Positions 32,527-36,283 of a stretch of 64,000 bases of DNA are shown here, piece by piece; within the stretch, counting starts at the first letter, position 1; each line of letters opens with the position of its first letter. This DNA is from Alphaproteobacteria bacterium (GTDB lineage: Bacteria; Pseudomonadota; Alphaproteobacteria; Puniceispirillales; Puniceispirillaceae): positions 1 to 64,000 of the forward strand of contig JADHLH010000002.1 in assembly GCA_016780765.1 (NCBI GenBank). The letters run 5' to 3'. Under the pieces are notes generated by a model that was not told where the DNA came from, made no database searches, and worked only from the letters and a program-made list of their open reading frames with translations. The position numbers were made by a program, and so were the translations under genes.

Positions 32527-32587
32527 GGCCTCACAGATCGCAACAGGGCCTCACAGATCGCAACAGGGCCTCACAGATCGCAACAGG
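32527..32587. repeat. 20-bp perfect tandem array, 3 copies (ggcctcacagatcgcaacag), starting one nucleotide after the ligI stop codon
   Basis: Direct reading at 32527, 32547, 32567. Confidence 0.97.
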
Positions 32588-32597
32588 TATGTCGGGG

Positions 32598-33287
32598 CTA
32601 TTCGGTGTCGGATGCCCTGGCCGTTCTGCGCGACGCGATGATCCGTCCGGCAACCACCACCATCAGCGCACAGCCTGCGGCGGCATAGGTTGATGTCATT
32701 TCGGGCAGCGTCTTAACACAATCGGCCAATAGCGGATCATGTACGATCAGATCGCCGGCCAGCCACCCCAGCAGGGCGCCACCAAGCATGATGATAATCG
32801 GAAAGCGTGTCATCAGATTCAGAATGATGGCACTGCCTCCGATGATGATCGGCACGCTGAGCGCGAGACCAAAAATCACCAGCGCCATATTGCCTTTTGC
32901 AGCGGCGGCAATGGCCACCGAATTGTCCAGGCTCATCACAAAATCGGCAATGATGATTGTGCGAATGGCATCATAAAGGCTTGCTGACTGCTTTACAGTG
33001 CCTTCGTCAAAATCATCCTCATCGGCCAGCAGCTTGATGCCAATCCACAGCAGCAAAAGCCCGCCGATCAGTTTCAGCGACGGGATGGTCAACAAGGTTG
33101 ATGCAAAAAATACAAGAACGCAGCGCAGAATAATCGCCCCGGCCGTGCCCCACAGAATGCCAAGCCTTTTTTGACGCTTTGGCAGGTTGCGACAGGCGAG
33201 TGCGATGATAATGGCGTTGTCACCACCAAGGATGATGTCGATCGCAATGATCTGGAGAATGGCCACAATCAGCGCTTCGTCCAACAT
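32598..33287 (-). CDS. TerC-family (YjbE-like) integral membrane protein
   Basis: DIILGGDNAIIIALACRNLP and DFVMSLDNSVAIAAAAKG signature TerC motifs. Confidence 0.88.
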   Translation of the reverse strand: MLDEALIVAILQIIAIDIILGGDNAIIIALACRNLPKRQKRLGILWGTAGAIILRCVLVFFASTLLTIPSLKLIGGLLLLWIGIKLLADEDDFDEGTVKQSASLYDAIRTIIIADFVMSLDNSVAIAAAAKGNMALVIFGLALSVPIIIGGSAIILNLMTRFPIIIMLGGALLGWLAGDLIVHDPLLADCVKTLPEMTSTYAAAGCALMVVVAGRIIASRRTARASDTE

Positions 33288-33475
33288 CCGTTCTTCTCTC
33301 CCCATGGCGGGCAGCGTGCCCGATGGCTGATATAGCCAGCGCGACCGGACGGCGCAACCTTCAAACTCAGATTTTCGGTTTACATGCCATTTCCTTTAGC
33401 TGCGACAAAAAAGGCCAACATCATTTGCGGACGGTTTTGAACGCATAAACCCTCTAACCATCAGAAATAAAATAG

Positions 33476-33518
33476 ATAATAATTGATAATGATTTTGGTA
33501 ATCATTATCAATTATTAT
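33476..33518. promoter_or_regulatory. 43-bp palindrome (19-bp perfect arms, 5-nt spacer) resembling a Fur-type iron box
   Basis: ataataattgataatgatt-ttggt-aatcattatcaattattat. Confidence 0.8.
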
Positions 33519-33526
33519 GTTGCTAC

Positions 33527-33555
33527 GTGCGAATGAGTTTGATAATCATTCGCAC
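33527..33555. promoter_or_regulatory. Second palindrome (10-bp perfect arms, 9-nt spacer), Fur-box-like
   Basis: gtgcgaatga-gtttgataa-tcattcgcac. Confidence 0.7.
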
Positions 33556-33593
33556 AACTTGTATTGTTACGCCTGTTGAGAGGGAAAGTCCAA

Positions 33594-34646
33594 ATGTTGA
33601 GTTCCTGTATTTTTCGTACGCTTCGCGATGGTTTGCGGGCGCTGCCTGTCACCCTGTTCTCCCTGTTAATGCTCGGCGGGATCGTCCAGTCGGTACATGC
33701 ATCCGAGGTGAATATCTATTCGCATCGTCAGCAATTCCTGCTGCAACCCTTCCTTGATGCCTTCACCGCCGAGACGGGTATCAAGACCAATGTTGTCTAC
33801 GCCTCGAAGGGTCTGGCCCAGCGGCTGCAGGCCGAAGGCGAGGCCAGCCCTGCCGATGTGATCCTGACTGTCGATATTGCGCGCCTTGGTGAATATGCCG
33901 ATCTTGATCTGCTGGCACCCGTGTCTTCTGATATTCTGAATGCCAATATTCCGGCACATCTGCGGGCAACGGACGGGCGCTGGTTTGCGTTTTCGACGCG
34001 TGCCCGCATTGTTGTCACTTCCAAAGAGCGTGTCGCTGATGGCGCGATCAAGGATTTTGAGGATCTGGCAGACCCGCAATGGCAGGGCCGTATCTGTACC
34101 CGCCAGGGAAGCCATGTCTATAACCGTGCGCTGATGGCATCGATCATCGCTGCACATGGTGAGGCGGCGGCTACCGAATGGGGCAAAGCGCTTGTCGCCA
34201 ATCTGGCGCGCCGTCCGCAAGGTAATGATCGCGCACAGGCAAAGGCCATCTTTGAAGGCCAGTGCGATATCGGCATCATGAACCATTATTACTTCGGCAA
34301 AATGATGTTTGGTGACAAGCCGGAACAGCGCGACTGGGCAAATGCCATTCGCCTTGTCTTTACCAATCAGGAAAATCGCGGTGCGCATGTGAACATTTCG
34401 GGTGGCGGGGTCGCAAAGCACAGCCCGAATCGCGATGCTGCCGTGCAGTTTCTGGAATTCCTGACCCAGACCACGGCGCAGCAGCTTTATGGCGAAATCA
34501 ATTTTGAATATCCGGCAAACCCGTCGGTGGATCCGGGCGGTGTTCTGCAGTCCTGGGGTTCATTCAACCGTGATGAGCTGAATATTGAAAAGCTGTCCGA
34601 ACTCGCGCCATCGGCACAAATGATTATTGATCGTATCGGATGGTAG
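33594..34646 (+). CDS. fbpA: Fe(3+) ABC transporter substrate-binding protein
   Basis: EVNIYSHRQQFLLQPFLDAFTAETGIKTNVVYASKGLAQRLQAEG, NHYYFGKM; FbpA/FutA-like. Confidence 0.87.
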   Translation: MLSSCIFRTLRDGLRALPVTLFSLLMLGGIVQSVHASEVNIYSHRQQFLLQPFLDAFTAETGIKTNVVYASKGLAQRLQAEGEASPADVILTVDIARLGEYADLDLLAPVSSDILNANIPAHLRATDGRWFAFSTRARIVVTSKERVADGAIKDFEDLADPQWQGRICTRQGSHVYNRALMASIIAAHGEAAATEWGKALVANLARRPQGNDRAQAKAIFEGQCDIGIMNHYYFGKMMFGDKPEQRDWANAIRLVFTNQENRGAHVNISGGGVAKHSPNRDAAVQFLEFLTQTTAQQLYGEINFEYPANPSVDPGGVLQSWGSFNRDELNIEKLSELAPSAQMIIDRIGW

Positions 34647-36283
34647 CAACGTTCCTGTCATCCTGGGCGCATGTGCGCAGCCGGCGTGCCGATGGCTGGT
34701 CCATCGGTGCGTTGTCGCTGTGCCTGTTGCTGCTTGGCCCGGTGGTGGCACTGATCCTGAAAGCACTCGGTGACAGTGGCGGCTTGTGGGGACATCTTCT
34801 TGATACGGTGTTGCTGCGCTATATCAGCAATACGCTTGTGTTGATGGTGGGGGTTGGCATTCTTGCCTGCCTGTTTGGCGTGGCGACGGCGTGGGTGATC
34901 ACCCGCTATGAATTTCCGGGCCGTATCCTGTTTGAATGGATGCTGCTGCTGCCGGCTGCAATTCCGGCCTATATCGTGGCTTACACCTATACCGATTTCT
35001 TTGAATATGCTGGCCCGGTGCAGAGTCAGCTTCGGATGTTGTTCGGCTGGACGCGGCCATCCGATTACTGGTTTCCCGAAATTCGTTCGCTGGGCGGGGC
35101 GACGCTTGTCATGGCCTCGGTGCTGTATCCCTATATCTACATGGTGACGCGCATCGCCTTCCGTCTGACACCGGCCAGCCTGTTCGAAATTGCTCTGGTT
35201 CATCGCAAATCACAGTTCTGGGCGGTTGGTCTGCCGCTGGCCCGTCCGGCTATAACAGCCGGGCTGGCGCTGGTGTTGATGGAGGTGGTGTCCGATTTCG
35301 GAACGGTGGAATATTTCGCTGTTGAAACGCTGACGCTGGGTATCTTCAATGTCTGGCTGGGGATGAACAACATTGTTGCGGCAGCGCAGATATCGCTTGT
35401 CGGGTTTGTGTTTATTCTCAGTTTGCTTGGGCTGGAGCTGTATGCCCGCTCCCGCCAGCGGTTCGCCAGTACAAGCCGCGCCACGCACGCGCTGCGCCCG
35501 CTGCATCTTGATCTGCGCGGCCAGACGGCTTGTATCCTTGTTTGCTGTATTCCCCTGTTGTTCGGCTTTGTCATTCCGGTTGGTGTCCTGCTGAAATTTG
35601 TGCTGACTGGCGGGCTGGTCGGCAACGTACTGGCCATTGCCGAGGTGCTGGGCGGGTCCGTTCTTGTGGCCGGTATGGCCGCCCTGCTGATCACGCTGGT
35701 ATCAACCTTTATCGTTTTGGCCGCGACCTATCGTGGTGGTGCTGCGCTGCGCCGGATGGCGATGGTGGCTTCCACCGGATATGCCGTGCCGGGCACGATG
35801 CTTGCCATCGGGGTGCTGATTTTTGCCGGCTCTGTTGATCGCAGCTTTGCCGCGGTGACGGGTGATGGCCGGGCCAGCCTGCTGCTGGGCGGTGTCGGCA
35901 TATTGATCCTTGCTTATCTGGTTCGTTTTCAGGCGGTTGGTTATGGTGCTGTCTTGTCGGGTATCAGACGTCTGCCTGACAATATGATGGGGGCGAGCCG
36001 AGTTCTTGGTAACGGTTTCACCTCCAGCCTGCGGCGGGTGATTTTGCCGCTTCTCAGCGGTTCGATGGTGGCTGGTGGATTGCTGGTCTTCGTAGATGTA
36101 ATGAAAGAACTGCCGATGACGCTGCTGTTGCGTCCGTTCGATTTTGAGACGCTTGCCACCTATACCTATCAGTTAGCAAAGGATGAAATGCTGGAAGAAG
36201 CAGCACTTCCTGCCCTGATGATCGTCATTGCCGGATTGCTGCCGGTGATCCTGATGAACAGGATGTTGCGGCGCACGGAGTAG
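34640..36283 (+). CDS. fbpB: Fe(3+) ABC transporter permease (fused two-unit)
   Basis: YEFPGRILFEWMLLLPAAIPAYIVAYTYTDF; overlaps fbpA by 7 nt. Confidence 0.87.
   Translation: MVATFLSSWAHVRSRRADGWSIGALSLCLLLLGPVVALILKALGDSGGLWGHLLDTVLLRYISNTLVLMVGVGILACLFGVATAWVITRYEFPGRILFEWMLLLPAAIPAYIVAYTYTDFFEYAGPVQSQLRMLFGWTRPSDYWFPEIRSLGGATLVMASVLYPYIYMVTRIAFRLTPASLFEIALVHRKSQFWAVGLPLARPAITAGLALVLMEVVSDFGTVEYFAVETLTLGIFNVWLGMNNIVAAAQISLVGFVFILSLLGLELYARSRQRFASTSRATHALRPLHLDLRGQTACILVCCIPLLFGFVIPVGVLLKFVLTGGLVGNVLAIAEVLGGSVLVAGMAALLITLVSTFIVLAATYRGGAALRRMAMVASTGYAVPGTMLAIGVLIFAGSVDRSFAAVTGDGRASLLLGGVGILILAYLVRFQAVGYGAVLSGIRRLPDNMMGASRVLGNGFTSSLRRVILPLLSGSMVAGGLLVFVDVMKELPMTLLLRPFDFETLATYTYQLAKDEMLEEAALPALMIVIAGLLPVILMNRMLRRTE

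Follow-up and report, generated by a model that had tools for sequence, protein, structure and literature searches.

An extended, doubled Fur-type operator predicted before the ferric-iron transporter genes fbpAB of an uncultured SAR116 bacterium

Two palindromes lie between the divergent genes terC and fbpA in the 64-kb window (the whole stretch of DNA analysed here; Table 1), 38-118 bp before the fbpA ATG (33594). They very probably represent an extended Fur operator in duplicate, at a spacing of 44 bp, through which Fur would repress fbpAB when iron is sufficient. An earlier note on this DNA had given them the same placement and had read them as an iron operator. We retain this reading because of the conservation of the motif before fbpA in the family, its recurrence at suf genes, the presence of a Magnetospirillum-type Fur, and the identity of 12 bp with a published footprint. 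Under iron sufficiency, both operator copies would be occupied by Fur dimers carrying metal, probably two and perhaps three next to each other on each copy, with an offset of 6 or 12 bp between their hexamers; the bound Fur would cover the fbpA promoter and keep fbpAB from being transcribed. Under iron scarcity, Fur would be released and the ferric-iron ABC transporter would be made. SAR116 bacteria are common in the surface waters of the sea, which are often poor in iron. The palindrome pair is almost certainly a well-conserved switch of a known kind in an uncultured marine member of this group, and as a mechanism the operator is ordinary.

Table 1. Genes and predicted regulatory elements at the terC-fbpAB locus (positions in the window)
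Feature	Position	Strand	Remarks
terC, YjbE-type TerC family membrane protein	32598..33305	-	start 33305 or 33287
Candidate terC promoter, TTGCGC-17-TATATC	33329..33357	-	position and spacing conserved in the genus
Palindrome 1, candidate distal Fur operator	33476..33518	.	perfect arms 19 bp, spacer 5 nt
Palindrome 2, candidate proximal Fur operator	33527..33555	.	arms 10 bp, spacer 9 nt
Candidate fbpA promoter, TTGATA-17-TATTGT	33539..33567	+	consensus match only; -35 within palindrome 2
fbpA, periplasmic ferric-iron-binding protein	33594..34646	+	closest solved relative Mannheimia FbpA 1q35
fbpB, fused ABC permease	34640..36283	+	start overlaps fbpA stop

On recomputation, palindrome 1 (43 bp) was exactly as the earlier note had described it, with arms at 33476-33494 and 33500-33518 that are 100% complementary. 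It is unique in the window, where it is the longest palindrome with a short spacer and the runner-up has arms of 11 bp, 8 bp shorter. Arms of 11 bp were also the most that three dinucleotide shuffles of the whole window produced, and in 2000 shuffles of the intergenic region (288 bp) this length was never exceeded. The arms of palindrome 2 were also recovered, although their length alone can be reached by shuffling (arms of at least 10 bp arose in 6 of the 2000 intergenic shuffles) and is not exceptional, the window having two other palindromes with 10-bp arms. The weight of palindrome 2 is in its sequence and conservation, not in its arm length. The outer arms of palindrome 1, ATAATAA/TTATTAT (33476-33482 and 33512-33518), are missing from the closest equivalent in the genus (locus L016).

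The two palindromes resemble each other. Gapless alignment of the core of palindrome 1 (33483-33511) with palindrome 2 gives 21 identical positions out of 29, and both have a common 25-bp layout of hexamers, 6-6-6-1-6, which reads GATAAT-GATTTT-GGTAAT-C-ATTATC at 33485-33509 and GCGAAT-GAGTTT-GATAAT-C-ATTCGC at 33529-33553. By inspection, each palindrome contains four adjacent GATAAT-like hexamers, some of them degenerate, where at least three are the criterion for a Fur operator. Single Fur boxes were judged against the 7-1-7 inverted repeat, either as TGATAATNATTATCA or in forms richer in GC. The best box of palindrome 1, the right-hand one (33496-33510), has one mismatch to the strict consensus, and the right-hand box of palindrome 2, TGATAATCATTCGCA (33540-33554), fits the variant TGATAATNATTMKCA exactly, with two mismatches to the strict form. 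Within each array the outer 7-1-7 boxes are offset by 12 bp, and the two arrays are 43-44 bp apart in this genome.

Compared with the classical 19-bp Fur box of Pseudomonas aeruginosa and E. coli, GATAATGATAATCATTATC (6-6-1-6), each palindrome is that box plus one extra middle hexamer (25 versus 19 bp), and here two such arrays stand in tandem. The outer half-sites are the same (palindrome 1 starts with GATAATGAT and ends with ATCATTATC), and in both cases GATAAT-like hexamers are arrayed around a single base. However, the boxes are offset by 6 bp in the solved two-dimer complex on GATAATGATAATCATTATC, and by 12 bp in the palindromes. In Magnetospirillum, Fur binds the feoAB1 operator, a single 25-bp site in the DNase I footprint, as one dimer, whereas two dimers bind the P. 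aeruginosa Fur box (PMC4506495). Read on the opposite strand, the feoAB1 footprint includes TGCGAATGAGTT, 12 consecutive bases that recur unchanged in palindrome 2 at 33528-33539, and the cognate Fur of this operator is closely related to the SAR116 Fur; the sequence of palindrome 2, in contrast to that single site, runs on into a second box. The earlier note had taken the length of palindrome 1 as a sign of cooperative binding by several dimers. Multi-dimer binding is plausible in view of the hexamer arrays and the published two-dimer structure, and we infer the dimer count from the number of hexamers and that structure; on the other hand, the outermost 7 bp of palindrome 1, which contribute to its length, are not conserved in the closest equivalent. 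Another alphaproteobacterial Fur, that of Caulobacter crescentus, also has a palindromic motif, of 19 bp, in the promoters of iron genes (PMC3751524, PMC11475020). The isc-suf operon of Caulobacter was reported not to be directly regulated by Fur (PMC11475020); in the SAR116 genome, by contrast, sufR-sufB has a Fur-type box before it.

Upstream of fbpA in 29 loci of the family, a Fur box with at most zero, one or two mismatches was found in 13, 24 and 27 loci, respectively, against 0.0, 0.0 and 0.35 expected from shuffling; no match was found in 51 more distant loci, most of which come from uncultured marine alphaproteobacteria, SAR11 among them. In the genus alignment, no part of the intergenic region is better conserved than the two boxes, and in genus relatives a Fur box stands at the position of palindrome 1. 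Box doublets are frequent before fbpA; their spacing is 48-50 bp in the genus relatives, and in the sister genus g6 it is 43-44 bp. The exact sequence TGATAATCATTCKCA has 22 copies in 10 of the 12 genus genomes (reversed-pattern control, 0), all of which stand before fbpA or sufR-sufB, apart from one before a DUF4856 gene that diverges from terC. A family-wide search with a 17-bp pattern finds fbpA, sufR, DUF4856 and the terC/fbpB intergenic region. When the own genome was scanned with the motif, as the earlier note had proposed, the fbpA locus and sufR-sufB were the only places with confident sites; few other places carry the motif, a point against the reading. The motif is a usable marker of the SAR116 Fur regulon (fbpAB, suf and DUF4856). 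The suf site is on contig C97 (L129), with the Fur-type box at 1077-1091, sufR at 1139 and sufB at 1627, and this arrangement is kept through the genus. A two-mismatch match on contig C69, between frr-like and uppS-like genes on the same strand, is probably due to chance. With three mismatches allowed, the strict scan found 90 sites per strand, compared with 13 in the reversed control, and was set aside because many of the sites listed are TGATGATGA-type repeats.

The genes and regulators are consistent with this reading. FbpA matches Mannheimia FbpA at 6.6e-87, and many further solved ferric-binding proteins also match. A promoter consensus search before fbpA gave two sites against 0.8 expected; the candidate promoter begins inside palindrome 2, but its -10 element is poorly conserved. 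The own genome encodes two Fur-family proteins, of 138 and 186 aa, and in each of the 12 genus genomes there are likewise two Fur-family matches, one strong and one weaker. The 138-aa protein matches Fur of Magnetospirillum gryphiswaldense (4ray) at 4.4e-48 and Fur of 5fd5 at 4.7e-47. In the alignment, it shares with Magnetospirillum Fur Tyr56, Arg57, Thr17, Gln19, Arg20 and His33, with Lys15 replaced by Arg; the residues compared are those reported for that protein (PMC4506495). The 186-aa protein is Irr, scoring over the IrrA cut-off, and by inspection katG-like and fabA/fabB-like genes adjoin its gene.

The earlier note also suggested that the palindromes couple iron uptake with TerC-type metal handling, with Fur repressing both fbpAB and terC from a shared divergent region. 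The layout on which this idea draws is conserved. terC is present in 22 of the 61 family genomes, spread over four genera, and is divergent from fbpA, fbpB or a DUF4856 gene in all 19 loci with enough flank (about 1.5 kb beyond terC); in 18 of the 19, a Fur-box match with at most two mismatches lies within 450 bp of terC. Since every terC in these loci has such a neighbour, the comparison cannot separate terC from its iron-gene partner. The synteny is real, and it is suggestive of a coupling; the motif draws attention to this conserved association between terC and iron uptake. Nevertheless, Fur boxes also precede fbpA at loci where terC is not adjacent, and seven genus loci have in common a promoter-like sequence, TTGC[GA]N-17-TATA, at -66 to -73 upstream of terC. 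In the window this element is 119 bp from palindrome 1, the nearer of the two palindromes, and terC in this genome probably has its own promoter. This conserved sequence makes direct Fur control of terC doubtful in the genus, where such control is not supported. In the sister genus g6, five loci have TTGCAA-16-TAT at -100 from terC, and a Fur box comes to within about 25 bp of the candidate -35 element of terC, which makes Fur control of terC possible there. Shared control is, on balance, an unlikely account of the locus. A manganese riboswitch was looked for upstream of terC with Rfam; the best matches fell below the gathering scores and none was credible. Literature searches on Fur control of TerC yielded nothing usable. 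We give a rather low probability to a distinct SAR116 Fur geometry, in which dimers would sit 12 bp apart (or three of them in 6-bp steps) on a 25-bp array that is doubled at about 44-50 bp, together with a coordination of TerC with ferric-iron uptake in several genera.

Other regulators or functions could be considered for the palindromes themselves. The genome encodes a homologue of Irr, whose operator (ICE) has the pattern TTTAGAA-N3-TTCTAAA; no element of this kind was seen on reading 33306-33593 and the conserved motif is of the Fur type, so control of the site by Irr is highly improbable. Instead of Fur, the motif might be bound by a regulator of the Rrf2 type, either RirA or the SUF regulator. 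The RirA operator has the pattern TGA-N9-TCA, which both palindrome centres fit, and sufR, an Rrf2 gene, has an exact copy of the motif immediately before it. However, RirA reached the curated cut-off in none of the 61 family genomes, and the sole protein of the genus with a score in the RirA search is the SUF regulator (47-62 bits, against a cut-off of 193), although another regulator could be missing from the own assembly, which is 82% complete. The motif, moreover, matches operators bound by an alphaproteobacterial Fur (PMC4506495), and we consider binding by an Rrf2-type regulator improbable. The length and the AT-rich perfect arms of palindrome 1 may also recall a terminator or a mobile palindromic element, a reading to which we attach hardly any probability: no terminator was predicted at the locus, fbpA and terC are both transcribed away from the palindrome, no second copy was found in the own genome within two mismatches of 18 specified bases, and the position of the box is conserved in relatives. 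Repression of fbpAB by Fur remains the preferred reading of the palindromes.

DUF4856 genes are found behind strong Fur boxes at several loci (L142, 1501-2797; also L170, L171 and L186), and once a DUF4856 gene takes the place of fbpA opposite terC. The position of these genes makes DUF4856 proteins candidate iron-acquisition proteins; we found no paper that mentions both DUF4856 and imelysin. terC (32598-33305 in the window; L187-L208) keeps a divergent iron-uptake or DUF4856 neighbour though the partner gene varies. Just past its 3' end, at 32528-32587, there are about three tandem copies of the unit ggcctcacagatcgcaaca.
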